Shown piece after piece: positions 19,708-29,393 of a stretch of 30,874 nt of DNA; position 1 is the first letter of the stretch, and each line of letters starts with the position of its first letter. Below the pieces are notes generated by a model. That model was not told the origin of the DNA, made no database searches, and saw only the letters and a list, made by a program, of their open reading frames with translations. A program made the translations under genes and the position numbers. Source of the DNA: a virus. The DNA lies in the IMG/VR virus record IMGVR_UViG_3300030103_002196, positions 1-30,874 of that record; one strand, 5' to 3'.

Positions 19708-20939
19708 TCTATATACCTCGATTTCTCAGGAATTAATACAGTATTAACTATGCCATGCCACCCATTTATTTTATTTTTTATAACATTTAAGTTTCTCATA
19801 AAGTTAGGTGTGTCACCATCATGTTGGGCTTTACCTATTCCAATAATTAAATCAGCTTCGGCTGCTTTTCCTGTTCTACTATTTTCCATCATATCAAAAG
19901 ATAAAACTGCTGAACCTTCTGCCTCTGCATTTGCTTGAGATACACCTACTAAAGTTATATTTCTTCTTTTAGCTATTTCTCTTGCACCTAAATAGATTGC
20001 TCGTAATCTTTCATCACCTCTAGAAAAAGTTCCTTCTACATTTATCTTATCTAGTTGGTCAACAATAACAATATCAGGTTTATTGTCTTCACAATATTTA
20101 TCTAAAGATTCTAATGACCAGTCTACAGAATCATGACAAACTATGTTGTCACTAATCTTAGCCCATTCATCTTTTGCTTCTTGCATACTATCCTGTATAT
20201 CAAGTTTGTGCATGTCAGTCCATGCAGATACCATTCTCATCTGTGTTCTAACTGCAGGTTCTTCATTAATAAAGCAATGAACTTTAGCACCTTGGTGAGC
20301 AAAACCTTCATATCCTGCTACAAGACTTACCCAAAATGCAGTCTTACCTGTTTCGGGTCTGGCAAATATAACCATGAGATTACCTTCACCTACACCATCA
20401 ATTCTATCACCTAGTGTTTTTATATTAAATTTCCATTTAGATGTAACGGATACTGCATCTAACATTTCACCAATATCTTTAGTGACAGGAGTCAGTCCAT
20501 CTTCAGATTCTATTACATCTTCATCAAATTCTTCTACTAATTTTTTAACAGTGGATAATGATTTACTTTTACCATTCCAAACACCATTAGCTTCTTCTAT
20601 AACTTGCCTAGCATGTTCTAACATACGTAAATTTTTTAAGGTATCCGAAACGATATCAGCATTATATTCTGTAGTATCATTACCTATGTTGTCTAGTATA
20701 GTTTCCATTTTCTGCCTGTGAGCAGTGGTAGATGCAGGTTTATAAATATTAAAATATGCATCTTTAATTTCTTCAACAGATAGTTTTTGTATATTACTAT
20801 GCTTTTTATAAGTATCACCTATCACAGTGTATACCTCTGCTAAACCATTAGTAAAATTTTTCTTACTAATTCTCTTTTTGTTTTCTTCAAAAAAGTCACG
20901 GTTTAGACAGAACTTTATTATTCTATTCTCAAGTGACAT
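19704..20939 (-). CDS. DnaB-family replicative helicase
   Basis: The 411-residue product carries a RecA-like ATPase domain: Walker A ARPETGKT (193-200), a block HCFINEEP (221-228), Walker B DIVIVDQLD near 290, and GVSQANAEAEG near 337, all in the order of DnaB and T7 gp4 helicases. The N-terminal 170 residues are helical and probably mediate hexamer or primase contacts. It should unwind the fork for the polymerase encoded next. It overlaps the primase gene by 11 bases and the polymerase gene by 4, a tight primase-helicase-polymerase unit. Confidence 0.93.
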   Translation of the reverse strand: MSLENRIIKFCLNRDFFEENKKRISKKNFTNGLAEVYTVIGDTYKKHSNIQKLSVEEIKDAYFNIYKPASTTAHRQKMETILDNIGNDTTEYNADIVSDTLKNLRMLEHARQVIEEANGVWNGKSKSLSTVKKLVEEFDEDVIESEDGLTPVTKDIGEMLDAVSVTSKWKFNIKTLGDRIDGVGEGNLMVIFARPETGKTAFWVSLVAGYEGFAHQGAKVHCFINEEPAVRTQMRMVSAWTDMHKLDIQDSMQEAKDEWAKISDNIVCHDSVDWSLESLDKYCEDNKPDIVIVDQLDKINVEGTFSRGDERLRAIYLGAREIAKRRNITLVGVSQANAEAEGSAVLSFDMMENSRTGKAAEADLIIGIGKAQHDGDTPNFMRNLNVIKNKINGWHGIVNTVLIPEKSRYIE

Positions 20940-21732
20940 TAAATAACTCCTTTATCTTTGTGTCGTCTAAATATTTTAAGTCTTCGTCTAAGACTTTTAC
21001 TTCTGTATCAACAAGATACCTTAAGCCTTTTGATAAATCAAATGCCTTTTGCGTTGCGTCTCTATCTAAAGCTACAATAACTTTTTTAAAAGTTTTAGAT
21101 AAGTAAATTGCATACTCTTCTTTTAGTGTTGTTCCTAATAATGCAACTCCTGTGTGTACGGAACTAATAGTACATGCCGAAGCACAATCTTCTACTATAA
21201 CTGCAGTATCACTAGTACCACAAGTGAAAGGGATACTATTTTTATTATAGTTAAACCATTTAGGCATAACTATAGGATTAAGACTTCTACCTACTGCGGA
21301 GACAGCAGTACCTTCATCTTTAATTATGAATACTGCTCTATCTTTACGAGGGTCAAAGTATATTGATGCCAGACCTTCAAGATATGCCGGGTAACAATTA
21401 TTTTTTTTAATGTATGCTAAACATTTCTCACTAGACTGAATATTTGTAAAATGATTTGGGATTGTCCAGTTAAATGATTGCTGTCTGTCCGTTTTGACTG
21501 GTGACGATAGTTCCAAGAACTTGGTAACATCATCAGGAGATAATGCTCGTTCAGTAGTACCACCAATCTTACAAGATGCATGATAGCACTTCCACATTAT
21601 CTTACTGTCTTCTGTATTTACGCTGAATGTATTTTTATTAAGACAGAAAGGACAGTCCATTCTAACTTGCGTGTTAGATGCTATGCCTAACTGTTTAATA
21701 TATTCTAATTGATGTTTCTTTGTGATGTACAT
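20929..21732 (-). CDS. DNA primase (zinc-binding and TOPRIM domains)
   Basis: The start is placed at ATG 21732 (MYITKKHQLEY) because AAGGG lies 4 bases before it; a longer frame would begin inside the palindrome at 21745-21762. The 267-residue product has a zinc ribbon (CPFC at 27-30, then Cys49 and Cys54) and a TOPRIM domain (VIVEDCASACT with the Glu, VIVALDRDAT with the DxD). This equals the primase half of T7 gp4, but here it is a separate protein from the helicase. It makes RNA primers for replication. Confidence 0.92.
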   Translation of the reverse strand: MYITKKHQLEYIKQLGIASNTQVRMDCPFCLNKNTFSVNTEDSKIMWKCYHASCKIGGTTERALSPDDVTKFLELSSPVKTDRQQSFNWTIPNHFTNIQSSEKCLAYIKKNNCYPAYLEGLASIYFDPRKDRAVFIIKDEGTAVSAVGRSLNPIVMPKWFNYNKNSIPFTCGTSDTAVIVEDCASACTISSVHTGVALLGTTLKEEYAIYLSKTFKKVIVALDRDATQKAFDLSKGLRYLVDTEVKVLDEDLKYLDDTKIKELFNVT

Positions 21733-21744
21733 AATTCCCTTTCT

Positions 21745-21762
21745 ACTTAACACGTGTTAAGT
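21745..21762. repeat. Palindrome copy 1 (18 bp, perfect)
   Basis: ACTTAACACGTGTTAAGT. It ends 12 bases before the primase start codon and lies just after a minus-strand terminator-like hairpin. It belongs to a ten-copy family confined to 21745-29620. Confidence 0.95.
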
Positions 21763-21783
21763 AATTTTCTCATTTCTTCAAAA

Positions 21784-21819
21784 CCAAAAAAAGGGGCAGT
21801 CATTTCTGACCACCCCTTT
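21784..21819 (-). terminator. Terminator-like hairpin upstream of primase
   Basis: On the minus strand AAAGGGG pairs with CCCCTTT around an inner GTCA/TGAC stem with a 4-base loop, and seven T follow. It should stop or attenuate transcripts arriving from the 53-residue gene before the replication genes. The palindrome follows 22 bases later. Confidence 0.75.
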
Positions 21820-21862
21820 CAGCCACAAAGAAAGAAAGTATATGAGTGAATATACTCTTTCT

Positions 21863-22024
21863 TTATAGCTTTTTTTTCTGATATTGCAAGTTCTTTAAAT
21901 CTTTAATTAAATGTTTATTTATCAAGGGAAATTTAAAATCTGATAGGTATTCCCCTTTATGATATTTCAATAAAGATAATAACCTAGGATTAAATTTTTC
22001 TAGGTACTGTTCAGTTTCATTCAT
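21863..22024 (-). CDS. 53-residue small protein, function unknown
   Basis: The frame starts MNETEQYLEKFNPRLLSLL and ends NLQYQKKKL. GAAGGAG lies 6 bases before the ATG. The product is charged and probably helical, with no cysteine or membrane span. It stands alone: a structured, gene-free leader of about 290 bases precedes it and a terminator-like hairpin follows its stop by about 45 bases. Confidence 0.65.
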   Translation of the reverse strand: MNETEQYLEKFNPRLLSLLKYHKGEYLSDFKFPLINKHLIKDLKNLQYQKKKL

Positions 22025-22314
22025 GATTACTCCTTCATAAAGTCAAAGTGTAGGTAGGTCATCAAACACTAACTTCCCTACCTTCCCTCGCACAAGAAAA
22101 TATGACTAAACTTGTGGGTGTTTGGGCTTACACTATTTTAGGGTGAGCAGGAGTCAATAATGCAAACAATAAATCTACTCACCCAATGTACTTTGCGTTG
22201 CGTTTGAATTTATACTCGGCTACGAACCCAAGAATACGAAATGGCTTACGCACGAGTACCAACTAGTTAGTTTAAAGAAACATTCAATCGTCATCAAATG
22301 TTTCTCTAAACTTT
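22025..22314 (-). ncRNA. Candidate structured leader RNA upstream of the 53-residue gene
   Basis: No gene fits here, but the minus-strand transcript can fold repeatedly. There is a 15-base stem with one mismatch between 22298-22312 and 22269-22283 and a TACTCG/CGAGTA stem (22253-22258 with 22213-22218). A 10-pair stem GGGTGAGTAG/CTGCTCACCC lies at 22141-22184. A junction closed by AGTGTA/TACACT (22129-22134 with 22047-22052) holds ACAAG/CTTGT and AGGTAGG/CCTACCT stems and ends 10 bases before the GAAGGAG of the downstream gene. A cis-regulatory leader or a stable ncRNA is possible. Folding was judged by eye only. Confidence 0.45.
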
Positions 22315-22330
22315 CTTAACACGTGTTAAG
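22315..22330. repeat. Palindrome copy 2 (16 bp)
   Basis: CTTAACACGTGTTAAG, with the outer pair broken (T on both sides). It lies between the hairpin at 22337-22370 and the structured leader. Unlike most copies it is not next to a start codon. Confidence 0.95.
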
Positions 22331-22336
22331 TAAAAA

Positions 22337-22370
22337 GGGGTGTGAGAAAAAACTACTAAACTCACACCCC
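22337..22370 (-). terminator. Terminator-like hairpin before palindrome copy 2
   Basis: GGGGTGTGAG and CTCACACCCC form a perfect 10-pair stem with a 14-base loop, and on the minus strand the stem is followed by five T. It lies downstream of the 22423-22450 promoter, so it may attenuate that transcript. Confidence 0.75.
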
Positions 22371-22422
22371 AAGGTCGTCATATTAACAAACAACTCCCGA
22401 AAGGATTTTGGAGTCACTTATA

Positions 22423-22450
22423 ATAATAAACTAATCTCCTGTTAAGTCAA
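22423..22450 (-). promoter_or_regulatory. Minus-strand promoter, TTGACT-16-TATTAT
   Basis: The -35 TTGACT (22450-22445) runs into TTGACTTAACAGG, and TATTAT (22428-22423) follows after 16 bases. It overlaps the stop of the 22447-22695 gene. The sequence ACTTAACA equals a half-site of the repeated palindrome. Confidence 0.6.
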
Positions 22451-22695
22451 ATCGTAACAGGCTGATTATCTTTACCTATAATCGTAACATCGCCTAATGC
22501 TTCTATCCAAACTTTAGCACCACAGGATAAAGGCTTGTTAGGGCTATAGACAATTCTTGTAGCACCATTACAAACAACATCAGAGCCATAATAGTTATGC
22601 TTGTAGGTTTTAACTGTAATAACATCTTTGATGTCATCAGGATGTTTGGCATTGTGTCGAATGTTATGCTGATTGACATGAATACGTTTAATCAT
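22447..22695 (-). CDS. Small conserved phage protein, function unknown
   Basis: The start is set at ATG 22695 (MIKRIHVNQHNIRHN), 7 bases after GGAG. The 82-residue product contains VITVKTYKHNYYGSDVV and TRIVYSPNKPLSCGAKVWIEA, a pattern I recall from conserved small proteins of phages and some bacteria, with no known function. It looks like a compact beta-barrel. The first 8 bases overlap the end of the preceding gene. Confidence 0.7.
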   Translation of the reverse strand: MIKRIHVNQHNIRHNAKHPDDIKDVITVKTYKHNYYGSDVVCNGATRIVYSPNKPLSCGAKVWIEALGDVTIIGKDNQPVTI

Positions 22696-22879
22696 ATGAC
22701 TCTCCATTCTTTTTTACTACTTCACTAACATCAATAATTGTTCTATCTTTGTCAGTTTCATACAAAGCACTAGTATGACCATCCATTAAATAATTATCTT
22801 GTGCTTCTTCTACATCTTCTGCTTTTATGTAATACTTTTTTGTTTTGGTTATCTCAACAACAATTTCATACATAGGCAT
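22688..22879 (-). CDS. Small beta-beta-alpha type protein, function unknown
   Basis: The 63-residue product reads YEIVVEITKTKKYYIKAEDV followed by EEAQDNYL: two beta strands and a helix with an A-E-x-x-E-E-A turn. The same pattern appears in the 24291-24476 gene, so the two may be distant paralogues. AAAGGA precedes the ATG, and the start overlaps the upstream stop (TAATG). Confidence 0.65.
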   Translation of the reverse strand: MPMYEIVVEITKTKKYYIKAEDVEEAQDNYLMDGHTSALYETDKDRTIIDVSEVVKKNGESYD

Positions 22880-23214
22880 TAGTTTACATCCTTTACATCT
22901 ACTGCACCAACAAACATCAAACGATACTCATCAGTATTCTCTACCTCAATATGATAAATCATACCTTTGGCTTTGATGTATTTAATCGTGTTGTAATTAA
23001 TATTACGATAACCTTTTTTCTGCATATCATACGCAACTAAAAAGTTATTAGGGTCGGTATATTGTTTACCACCCTTTTGATTTTTCTTTACACCTAGTCG
23101 GAATACTCCCGTTCTAAATGTTCCGTCTTTCTTGTAGAAACCTACAGAGAAAGTATTTTGTGTACCCACCATTTCTTTGATAGCTTCTGGCACACTCATT
23201 TTTGACATAAGCAT
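22879..23214 (-). CDS. SH3-barrel-like small protein (DUF2693-like)
   Basis: The 111-residue product has FSVGFYKKDGTFRTGVF, a Gly/Lys-rich loop (GVKKNQKGGK), then LVAYDMQKKGYRNINYNTIKYI. This order of a KKDG strand, a GG loop and a YDM-x(5)-R-x-I-N strand pair resembles the SH3 beta-barrel proteins of DUF2693. The function is unknown. The SD (GGAAAGGAAAG) fits the ATG at 23214, and palindrome copy 3 ends 14 bases upstream. Confidence 0.65.
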   Translation of the reverse strand: MLMSKMSVPEAIKEMVGTQNTFSVGFYKKDGTFRTGVFRLGVKKNQKGGKQYTDPNNFLVAYDMQKKGYRNINYNTIKYIKAKGMIYHIEVENTDEYRLMFVGAVDVKDVN

Positions 23215-23228
23215 TAGCTTTCCTTTCC

Positions 23229-23244
23229 CTTAACACGTGTTAAG
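23229..23244. repeat. Palindrome copy 3 (16 bp)
   Basis: CTTAACACGTGTTAAG, flanked by C on the left and T on the right, so the outermost pair is lost. It ends 14 bases before the start of the 22879-23214 gene. Confidence 0.95.
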
Positions 23245-23247
23245 TAT

Positions 23248-23325
23248 TTATAACATTCCAATCCACTTCTTAAACGTGAATAATAGGAATAAAACAATTA
23301 CTAAAAATATAATATCCAAATCCAT
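23248..23325 (-). CDS. Possible 25-residue membrane micropeptide
   Basis: The frame MDLDIIFLVIVLFLLFTFKK continues for five more residues and is almost wholly one membrane helix with a basic end. It starts 7 bases after the stop of the 23333-23554 gene and ends 3 bases before palindrome copy 3. There is no clear SD, so translation would depend on coupling. AT-rich intergenic sequence can produce such a frame by chance. Confidence 0.3.
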   Translation of the reverse strand: MDLDIIFLVIVLFLLFTFKKWIGML

Positions 23326-23332
23326 AAATTTT

Positions 23333-23554
23333 TTACGATTTCGCTTTACAGATTTTAAAATGCATGATAGAAGGGGTTACCACCCCCGAGGATATATCTA
23401 CTTCCATATCTTCTTTTGTTTCCTCTCGAACATTTTTATCATGTATTCCGTAGCTTCCTTCAAGGTCATCTTTTTGTCCTTCACTATCTTTTTTTGTTTC
23501 ATTGTTATTAATAATATCATACCCAAAGGGTAAATCAAATTTAGTTCTTTTCAT
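23333..23554 (-). CDS. Small acidic protein, function unknown
   Basis: The 73-residue product starts MKRTKFDLPFGYDIINN, followed by a highly charged stretch (KKDSEGQKDDLEGSYGIHD) and a C-terminal part VDISSGVVTPSIMHF. It looks largely disordered. AAGGAAA precedes the ATG. It overlaps the upstream gene by 14 bases. No family recognised. Confidence 0.55.
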   Translation of the reverse strand: MKRTKFDLPFGYDIINNNETKKDSEGQKDDLEGSYGIHDKNVREETKEDMEVDISSGVVTPSIMHFKICKAKS

Positions 23555-23726
23555 TATTTATTTCCTTATTGTTTCTATAATAATCAAAAGTTAATATTTT
23601 ATTAACTCTGATACGTTCATACTTTCTTTTTCTTTCTTCTATATTTAACCTTTCAGCTTTTGTGTAAGACTGAATGGTTTTTTTATCTTTTTCTTTGCGA
23701 CCCATGATTGTTACATCATGTATCAT
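23541..23726 (-). CDS. Small basic protein, function unknown
   Basis: The 61-residue product is strongly basic and helical (KEKDKKTIQSYTKAERLNIE, then ERKRKYERIRVNK), which would suit nucleic-acid binding. GAGGTGA lies 5 bases before the ATG at 23726. An internal ATG at 23705 (MGRKEK) has no SD. It overlaps the upstream gene by 11 bases. Confidence 0.55.
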   Translation of the reverse strand: MIHDVTIMGRKEKDKKTIQSYTKAERLNIEERKRKYERIRVNKILTFDYYRNNKEINNEKN

Positions 23727-23934
23727 TGCTCACCTCATCTAAATCATCTTCAACCATGACATGAATATCAAGCTTATGTTTGTCATAATCTAATCCATAA
23801 TCATCCAATAACATTCTTTTAGCAAGATATTCTGCGTCTTCGTGAATATCTCTACTATTACCTGCTACTTTTACTTTGTAGCGAATAGTAAAAGATACTT
23901 CCAAAGGATAGTTTCTTTTTAATCCAGACATCAT
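23716..23934 (-). CDS. Small protein, function unknown
   Basis: The start is set at ATG 23934 (MMSGLKRNYPLEV), which shares ATGA with the stop of the 23931-24101 gene, behind GAGAGGTG; a GTG two codons earlier is inside that SD. The 72-residue product has two predicted beta strands (LEVSFTIRYKVKVAG) and a helix (DAEYLAKRMLLDDYG), then an acidic end. Confidence 0.6.
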   Translation of the reverse strand: MMSGLKRNYPLEVSFTIRYKVKVAGNSRDIHEDAEYLAKRMLLDDYGLDYDKHKLDIHVMVEDDLDEVSNDT

Positions 23935-24101
23935 TGACACCTCTCTTCAAATATTTTTTCTACTAGTTCATAGAATATACTATCTATGGTAGCAATGTCC
24001 AAGTCATGCTTCTCTACTAAATTAGAGAAATCATTCATGGGCATTTCTTCTAGTTCGTCTTTTATTCTTTCTTTTACTTCTTCGTTCTGATGACAACTCA
24101 T
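23931..24101 (-). CDS. 56-residue acidic helical protein, function unknown
   Basis: The frame starts MSCHQNEEVKERIKDELEEM and ends VEKIFEERCQ. It is tied to both neighbours by ATGA overlaps (24098-24101 upstream, 23931-23934 downstream), which is good evidence that it is translated although it is short. The product is helical and acidic, with one Cys at each end. Confidence 0.65.
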   Translation of the reverse strand: MSCHQNEEVKERIKDELEEMPMNDFSNLVEKHDLDIATIDSIFYELVEKIFEERCQ

Positions 24102-28287: not shown

Positions 28288-28323
28288 AATGTTTTCCTTT
28301 CTTTGCGTGTGTTGTTATTAATC

Positions 28324-28341
28324 ACTTAACACGTGTTAAGT
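28324..28341. repeat. Palindrome copy 7 (18 bp, perfect)
   Basis: ACTTAACACGTGTTAAGT, ending 36 bases before the start of the 28075-28287 gene. Copy 8 lies 31 bases further out. Confidence 0.95.
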
Positions 28342-28372
28342 AAGAGAGGAAATCAAAGGAGGGATATATAAG

Positions 28373-28386
28373 TTAACACGTGTTAA
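28373..28386. repeat. Palindrome copy 8 (14 bp core, degenerate flank)
   Basis: TTAACACGTGTTAA, with G on the left instead of C, so only the 14-base core is symmetric. It and copy 7 form a pair whose centres are 47 bases apart (28332/28333 and 28379/28380). Confidence 0.9.
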
Positions 28387-28436
28387 GCTAAGCAGTGATT
28401 GTGTTGGAGATAGGAACACTAATCGTGCCTAGCATT

Positions 28437-28465
28437 ATAATATCAAAGGTAGTTTCTTAAGTCCA
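28437..28465 (-). promoter_or_regulatory. Minus-strand promoter candidate, TGGACT-17-TATTAT
   Basis: TGGACT (28465-28460) in TGGACTTAAGA resembles the TTGACTTAACA of the other early promoters at 9 of 11 places. TATTAT (28442-28437) follows after 17 bases, overlapping a second box TATAAT (28439-28434). RNA from here would cross palindromes 8 and 7. Confidence 0.5.
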
Positions 28466-28617
28466 GTTTGTCGCAGTTAGTAATGTGTGGGGAAATATTT
28501 TTTGGGGTGATGTCGTAGTAGTTGTCGTTCGTTCGTTGTCGTTTGTCCAAAGGTTAGCCGTTTGTCCTTGTCGATAGTTCCGTAGGAACGATAGTTCCAT
28601 AGGAATTTTTTTTAGAC
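28466..28617. repeat. Gene-free region with direct repeats, candidate origin or control region
   Basis: Two 17-base units, CGATAGTTCCGTAGGAA (28572-28588) and CGATAGTTCCATAGGAA (28589-28605), stand head to tail, each with its own small GTTCC/GGAAC-type symmetry. Two CGTTTGTCC copies (28540-28548 and 28559-28567) start 19 bases apart, and GTCGTTCGTTCGTTGTC (28524-28540) is a short CGTT run. The stretch lies between a strong terminator and a promoter, so it is probably little transcribed. Its composition differs from the surroundings. Confidence 0.6.
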
Positions 28618-28648
28618 AAAAAAAAACCCCCGAGATTTCTCTCGGGGG
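28618..28648 (-). terminator. Strong Rho-independent terminator
   Basis: CCCCCGAGA and TCTCGGGGG form a perfect 9-pair stem with a 4-base loop, followed on the minus strand by nine T. It ends the transcript of the 28665-29393 gene, 16 bases after its stop codon. Confidence 0.93.
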
Positions 28649-28664
28649 CTTAAGTTGTTAATTA

Positions 28665-29393
28665 TTAGAAGTTTATAGCTGTTGGCATTTTAGCTTTCCC
28701 TGCCATTTGGGGATTAGCTTTTTCAGTAGCCTCAGTAGTTCTTTTTTCAAAGGCTTCAGAAGCGTTGAGTATCAACAATTCTAGCTTTTCGATATCTAAT
28801 TCTATGAAAAATCTAGGGTTGTTATTCAGATAATCAATAGCTTGGGTAGCCTCAGATAAAGTAGATACCTCATTTTTTTTGGTGTCTCGATTTCTAGTCT
28901 TATTTTTCTTATCCATATTTTTGACAGATAATACTTTTTTCTTTGCATCTAAAATTTGAGCAGTTTTTTCATCAATGCTAAATTTAGGATTTTCAAAGAG
29001 TGTCATCGATGCATCAATTATTCTTTTCATTGCCATTACAAATGAATGTAGCTGCTTTGATTTATCGTAGCCAGTGAAATGATAAAGAGCATTTCTTAAC
29101 TGGTCCTTTGATAGTACTAGATTATTTTTCTTAGCCTCAGTAATCATTTGAACAGTTAATTTAATTAATGAGATTTTTTGAGATACTGATTTTTTTTCAG
29201 CATTTTCAAAAGTCTTTATTAATCCTTTACCTACTGAAAAAATCTCAGTTAAAGTTTTCTCAGAATAATAATTTTTCTGAAGTTCTTTAGGCAATTTTAA
29301 AGCCTTAGCCTTAACTGTTTTTTGAGCCACCTTTGAAGAATGGCTTGATGTTGATTTCTTAGTAGTTTTTTTAGTAGTTTTATTTTTAGTCAT
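28665..29393 (-). CDS. Lys-rich protein, first early gene, function unknown
   Basis: The 242-residue product starts behind GAAAGGA with a Lys/Thr/Ser tail (TKNKTTKKTTKKSTSSHSSK) of histone-like composition, followed by helical parts (LTEIFSVGKGLIKTFENA, QMITEAKKNNLVLSKDQL, FVMAMKRIIDASMTLF) and a second basic linker (KNMDKKNKTRNRDTKKN). It is a single-gene transcript: promoter at 29891-29918, two palindromes in its leader, strong terminator behind it. Being first, basic and separately controlled makes it a candidate DNA-binding regulator or nucleoid protein. No family or helix-turn-helix was recognised. Confidence 0.75.
   Translation of the reverse strand: MTKNKTTKKTTKKSTSSHSSKVAQKTVKAKALKLPKELQKNYYSEKTLTEIFSVGKGLIKTFENAEKKSVSQKISLIKLTVQMITEAKKNNLVLSKDQLRNALYHFTGYDKSKQLHSFVMAMKRIIDASMTLFENPKFSIDEKTAQILDAKKKVLSVKNMDKKNKTRNRDTKKNEVSTLSEATQAIDYLNNNPRFFIELDIEKLELLILNASEAFEKRTTEATEKANPQMAGKAKMPTAINF

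Follow-up and report, generated by a model that had tools for sequence, protein, structure and literature searches.

The leader RNA described here is real, conserved, modular and absent from Rfam, and it constitutes a new phage RNA. It lies in the window, i.e. the whole 30,874-nucleotide stretch of DNA that was analysed, itself part of a 48,112-base virus record, and is predicted to be a minus-strand phage transcript made of separate structured modules (HP1, X, H and C), of which X and C would be domains that are exchanged and rearranged among marine phages. The initial annotation had pointed to a possible structured RNA in front of a 53-residue gene; that observation holds and understates what is present.

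The large rightward genes of the window sit left of ~14.5 kb, and the replication genes, with polymerase, primase and helicase among them, run leftward. On the minus strand (22314-22025) the order is palindrome, HP1, X, H, C, Shine-Dalgarno and 53-aa gene (Table 1). The 290 bases are gene-free, as had been stated, with no ORF of at least 40 aa wholly within them on either strand. No family match to the 53-aa gene was found in Pfam or PHROGs, and reading frames related to it follow the leaders of five related loci (L002-L006). Relatives, which carry L numbers throughout, are loci with a primase or helicase plus contigs found by X or C patterns.

Table 1. Features of the leader and its surroundings, in window coordinates.
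Feature	Position	Strand	Basis
Terminator-like hairpin GGGGTGTGAG / CTCACACCCC then TTTTT; ends upstream leftward genes	22332..22370	-	sequence reading
Palindrome CTTAACACGTGTTAAG, leader start	22315..22330	.	one of 10 copies
HP1, 5'-proximal hairpin, 20 pairs	22269..22312	-	folding; relatives
Module X	22185..22262	-	17 viral contigs; 10 distinct sequences aligned
X P1, ACTCG with CGAGT	22257-22253 / 22218-22214	-	
X core, GTAAGCCATTT..GTTCGT		-	
X invariant tail, AACGCAACGCAAAGTAC, 17 nt	22204-22188	-	
H, 10-pair hairpin GGGTGAGTAG / CTGCTCACCC	22141..22184	-	folding
Module C, three-way junction	22047..22134	-	covariation, 13 distinct sequences
C P1	22134-22130 / 22051-22047	-	
C P2, CCC with GGG	22126-22124 / 22087-22085	-	
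C P2b	22116-22111 / 22096-22091	-	
C P3	22082-22078 / 22057-22053	-	
C candidate pseudoknot, AAACAC with GTGTTT	22123-22118 / 22069-22064	-	
Shine-Dalgarno AAGGAG of 53-aa gene	22030..22035	-	sequence reading
53-aa gene, first after leader, starts primase group	21863..22024	-	ORF list
DNA primase gene, next downstream	20929..21726	-	PHROGs phrog_47, E 1e-19

The terminator-like hairpin upstream of the leader is missing from the terminator-scanner list, its 14-base loop exceeding the scanner's limit. The palindrome that follows it is likely to be an operator or promoter element. Its core, TTAACACGTGTTAA, has 10 exact copies in the window, as in the whole 48-kb record, and all ten stand at the starts of leftward gene groups (21747, 22316, 23230, 24923, 25896, 27256, 28326, 28373, 29504 and 29605); the primase gene carries its own at 21747-21760. 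In related phage records TAACACGTGTTA is present in 11, 7 or 4 copies; L009 carries TTATAACGTTATAA in its place, which would fit a joint change of operator and regulator across related phages.

Excess folding stability was found on the minus strand, where the leader folds at -83.5 kcal/mol versus -63.8 +/- 4.75 for shuffled sequences (z -4.16, 0 of 200 as low); the plus strand gives z -1.82. In piecewise folding, a stem first described as 15 bases long proves to be HP1 (22312-22269), which actually has 20 pairs (z -8.7), and the 10-pair stem is H (22184-22141), with its 10 pairs intact (z -3.9). Folded alone, X (z -1.6) and C (z -1.27) have unremarkable energies. A local scan of 1,026 windows of 120 nt peaked on the minus strand at HP1 and the adjoining terminator-like hairpin, with z -6.2 (start 22261, a segment that also contains the upstream terminator-like hairpin) and -5.4 (start 22201), and starts from 22021 to 22141 reached just -0.6 to -1.9, so that C is not unusual. 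Because the segments over C are unremarkable, the energy excess of the leader is local to HP1 and H; it demonstrates hairpins and not the junction, and relatives were therefore needed for C. Folding energy was accordingly set aside as a test of structure, being misleading for modules such as X and C that are not unusually stable. In relatives, HP1 keeps GAAA(C/T)A...T(G/A)TTTC and the surrounding sequence is changed. A second gene-free stretch (28321-28680), after a 242-aa gene, also folds strongly, on both strands (z -6.4 and -5.9).

The three-way junction closed by AGTGTA/TACACT that had been drawn from the window is module C (22134-22047), which ends ~11 bases before the Shine-Dalgarno, essentially where it had been placed, and its helices are backed by compensatory changes in relatives. 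The C core occurs in 15 viral contigs; the window and L002, in which the copy carries a single additional A, bring the total to 17 phage records, and model R2 finds one C copy per positive record. Removal of the duplicates L111, L198, L200 and L202 (L098 and L008 being one contig) left 13 distinct sequences for alignment. Over 18 named pairs, 93.0% of cells are paired versus 74.9% in shuffles, both-side changes occur in 12 of the 18 pairs (7.1 on average in shuffles) and in 43 cells (11.6 in shuffles), and the covariation score is 0.561 (0.204 shuffled); none of 500 shuffles attained any of these four values, and 15 of 500 attained the count of further pair types. With partners slid by 1-3 columns, 25-48% of cells are paired. 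These counts come from an automatic alignment with pairs named by the author and from shuffles that ignore relatedness, and they were lowered by the L093 and L201 rows, which are misaligned by two bases in P1. In a hand alignment with hand-chosen helix blocks, standard pairing holds at each pair in 12 or 13 of 13 sequences, except at two pairs with 10/10 or 11/11. Whole stems differ between phages (e.g. CACAG/CUGUG, GAGC/GCUC and UACGAUC/GAUCGUA), and AAACACC, CGAGG and GTTAGTGTTT are fixed. The comparison shows the structure of C to be conserved. AAACAC and GTGTTT are complementary and could form a pseudoknot, a possible pairing that is invariant in 13/13 sequences and so offers no covariation test. 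A hammerhead-like reading of 'UGAUGA' in C was rejected, the motif being altered in L093 and L008.

The leader hence has both excess stability (z -4.16) and, in C, the compensating base changes whose joint absence would have spoken against a structured RNA, with covariation strong for C and modest for X, and the structure is no artefact of folding energy. That the pairing arose by chance in an AT-rich gap could be read from the unremarkable folding energies of X and C (z -1.6 and -1.3), but the probability of this is close to nil: the covariation of C (0/500 shuffles) already contradicts it, and the modules recur in phages that otherwise have no DNA in common with the window.

Module X is conserved in another manner. 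Its tail, AACGCAACGCAAAGTAC, is present in 21 viral contigs besides the window, in 17 of which the whole of X is found, the matches in L102, L103, L104 and L109 being due to chance. A relaxed pattern allowing changes returns the same 17 contigs as the strict pattern, from which it follows that the X core barely varies. Mean column identity among the ten distinct sequences is 88%, and core and tail are nearly invariant though mostly outside the stem. The stem itself changes from ACTCG/CGAGT to ACTAG/CTAGT and CCTTG/CAAGG, with two of five pairs changing on both sides (hand-chosen blocks). X is thus a well-conserved element with modest structural proof, and its near-invariant core fits what is expected of a binding surface. 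Several further readings of X were discarded. The candidate pseudoknot UUGGGUU/AAnUCAA, in which 92.9% of cells pair, is unproven, as 450 of 500 shuffles score as high, and the minimum-energy fold is incorrect for X, its GUAC/GUAC closure being absent in relatives such as L012, L093 and L100, where the ACUCG/CGAGU stem is kept. A tRNA-like reading of GGGTTCGTAGCC was dropped (no tRNA in the window; motif altered in L108), as was pairing of X with a host RNA in antisense, the exact 19-nt tail being found on either strand in 0 of 84,980 prokaryote species genomes. The C core has no exact match in 84,980 prokaryote genomes.

The modules are more alike between phages than the genes around them. 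When the window was compared by blastn with the analysed stretches of each relative locus, L093, L096 and L101 shared only X with it (93.4% over 76 bases), L095 had 91% identity in X and 68-70% in genes, and L100 and L106 had 82-88% in C and X and 63-73% in genes. A gap of this kind would result from strong constraint, module exchange or both. Against 50,697 phage records the leader gave no blastn match at E<=1, and the sole phage record matched by the helicase-to-leader stretch was Pelagibacter phage HTVC033P (67% over part of the helicase). Hits to Staphylococcus phages that blastn returned for the L106 region (43 bases at a best E of 3e-4) were taken as chance.

The strand of action can be judged from G-U pairs, which are present in conserved C helices as well as in the candidate pairing of X and which would be A-C mismatches on the opposite strand; they indicate a minus-strand RNA and point away from a DNA structure. 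An origin structure was among the suggestions of the initial annotation, and a DNA-level element, i.e. a replication origin or single-strand structure near the replication genes, would suit the location of the leader, which in the window clade immediately precedes genes for primase, helicase and polymerase. Such an element is very improbable, since the modules are also found before the gene upstream of terminase (L093 and L201) and before small early genes (L196 and L197), and since the opposite strand could not form the G-U pairs of the conserved helices.

The leaders of the primase and helicase loci are mosaics whose module order varies between phages, and one compact module may stand where another phage has a different one. 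C lies directly before the start site in 5 of 17 records (the window, L113, L196, L202 and L197), is separated from the gene by a palindrome in two (L002 and L008) and by module B in one (L201); in the remaining nine (L093, L100, L106, L111, L195, L198, L199, L200 and L203) what comes next is other modules, a terminator or a promoter-like stretch. Visual inspection was the basis for the promoter-like stretches of L093, L106, L195 and L203, and that of L106 is absent from the scanner list. A palindrome stands between the RNA cassette and the next gene in L002, L003 and L008, and in L106 a terminator closes the C-HP1-X region ahead of primase. A conserved class of downstream gene was sought for C and X, and unrelated genes were found to follow them. 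Genes of one family, MLVLETTTRKRVD, are preceded by X in L095 and by C in L197, and the MNKKKEID gene near terminase is preceded by C-B in L201, C-B-HP1-X in L093 and B-HP1-X in L096 and L101. A 56-aa protein of the window with NDFSNLVEKHDL (23931-24101, minus strand) has a relative encoded immediately downstream of C in L196 and L202.

The annotation's suggestion of a small RNA gains support for X in one other phage, L108, where a scanner-listed promoter-like site, TTGACA-16-TAGAAT (11/12 consensus), is followed by X, module B and a scanner-listed terminator of 11 pairs. In the window no scanner terminator overlaps C or X, and the leader continues into the 53-aa gene. The suggestion of a cis-regulator is possible for the window and is unspecific, the same modules standing before different genes and the same gene family having X or C. 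According to this explanation C and/or X would sense a ligand or protein and control translation or elongation into the 53-aa and primase operon, as proposed for manA and wcaG. It would account for C lying ~11 bases before the Shine-Dalgarno and, in 5/17 records, directly before a gene, for the complementarity between ACTCCT within H and AGGAGT at the Shine-Dalgarno region, and for a highly conserved core of the sort typical of aptamers. We consider it possible but rather unlikely, because another module, a terminator or a promoter-like stretch follows C in 9/17 records, the downstream genes have no shared theme and no terminator overlaps C or X in the window; moreover, the H hairpin also precedes C in L008, but there its complement has no counterpart at the Shine-Dalgarno site of the gene downstream of C. 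Modules that change genes from phage to phage and that can precede terminators are poorly explained by a role specific to the gene downstream.

Other modules accompany X and C in related phages. Module B (GGC..GGGTAGTGCC..AAAACTACCC, with a variable insert) looks like an H-type pseudoknot and occurs in L108 (3277-3242), L006 (2088-2125), L120, L121, L200 and others. A module-B-like match lies within 700 nt upstream in 13 of 73 distant primase relatives, or ~11 of 73 as those of L168 and L170 look spurious. Module F has an outer stem UGGGU/GCCCA, a conserved loop GTAATACTAGTT and a variable third stem (L006:2022, L008:416 and L009:180), and module M is GCATTGAGCCAGAG.TATATGTAAGGCAAAAGCAGG inside a changing outer stem (L202:2024-2059, L106:5275-5310, L100, L111 and L199). 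Module D resembles what we take to be the c-di-GMP-I riboswitch motif; this identity was rejected, as no Rfam match at E<=0.5 was found in the seven loci searched. Module K (GTCCCAAYG..CRTTGTGGGTATAA..GCC) has compensating changes and is found in L008 (~560-680), L196, L202, L132 and L136, and also in the cultured pelagiphage HTVC115P (MN698247.1, ~2740-2870), between gp07 and gp08. K thereby provides a related module for which both phage and host are in culture (Pelagibacter phage HTVC115P and HTCC7211).

At gathering score the window has no match in Rfam 15; with lower thresholds, the leader and related stretches gave none or sub-gathering matches only, and no manA covariance-model match covers the leader. 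A weak manA match is present at L202:722-934 (29.5 bits, cut-off 55.2, E 2.8e-5 in 1.8 kb), ~1.3 kb from the C of that record, which also carries B, M and K. A large catalogue of structured RNAs in viruses and phages by Fremin and colleagues reportedly exists and may list some of the modules. X and C are unreported in the published literature searched, published supplements lying outside that search, and none of the Pelagibacter ubique motifs is recognisable as X or C from the text alone of the available part of PMC2704228. The nearest known kind are the marine phage RNAs manA (RF01745), which has a candidate pseudoknot, and wcaG (RF01761), described in the accessible part of PMC2864571 as structured RNAs of marine metagenomes and cyanophages that lie in possible 5' UTRs. 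These mostly precede metabolic genes, from which X and C differ, being also without an Rfam match. The STAXI motif, a pseudoknot motif near DNA-handling genes (PMC2864571, same part), offers another comparison. STAXI is tandemly repeated, whereas X and C are single-copy in the records searched.

Type III antitoxin RNAs have phage-borne copies. As small pseudoknotted RNAs in phage-host conflict (ToxI; excerpts of PMC5449768 and PMC5772629) they invite comparison with the modules. However, no tandem 30-50 nt repeats and no tandem family were found in 20900-23700, and in the place of the neighbouring toxin the gene after the leader has no Pfam or PHROGs match. GOLLD and ROOL are likewise linked to phages. 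They are large, ornate bacterial RNAs (PMC12286853, in the part available), unlike the modules here, which are ~45-110 nt and have no Rfam match.

A further explanation is that HP1 and the junctions or pseudoknots keep early transcripts from 5' decay, for instance by stalling RNase J as xrRNA can. Flaviviral xrRNA, which combines a three-way junction and a pseudoknot, can halt bacterial RNase J1 in vitro (PMC5760640, in the part available), and C would be alike if its candidate pairing is real, its P1, P2/P2b and P3 covarying as a three-way junction; strand order, sequence and host differ, and the likeness of C is drawn from sequence alone. A protective role would further suit a 20-pair hairpin at the presumed 5' end and the interchange of compact modules at the same place, as expected for a generic job. 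For X and C it is nevertheless improbable, as a generic block needs no 17-nt invariant tail in X and the candidate pseudoknot of C never varies.

The reading that we tentatively favour, at somewhat less than even confidence, is that X and C are RNA domains which act on a partner in trans and which this phage places at the 5' end of an early transcript. The job of each domain would be independent of the downstream gene, most likely the binding of a conserved host or phage macromolecule; some phages would carry X as an apparent stand-alone transcript, and this phage would carry the domains at the 5' end of its early operon transcript, with HP1 at the presumed 5' end probably protecting it. The extreme sequence conservation of X, the modular order and the varied gene contexts, as shown by comparison between phages, argue for a partner in trans. 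The position of C directly before the Shine-Dalgarno in 5/17 records, as for a cis-regulator, would count against it, as would the thin pairing support for X, with two of five stem pairs varying on both sides.

Structured RNA families are poorly charted in phages of abundant ocean bacteria. Here, the conservation of X outlives all other DNA likeness between phages and the structure of C is demonstrated by covariation. The movement of modules among differing gene contexts is suggestive of RNA effectors with a gene-like spread. In a more speculative extension, to which we give low confidence, marine phages would draw on a common stock of compact RNA domains (X, C, B, K, M, F and others) and swap them between genomes like anti-defence genes, each domain being an effector that blocks or decoys one conserved host factor, e.g. 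an RNase, a toxin or the translation machinery. If true, such leaders would be the RNA counterparts of anti-defence islands.
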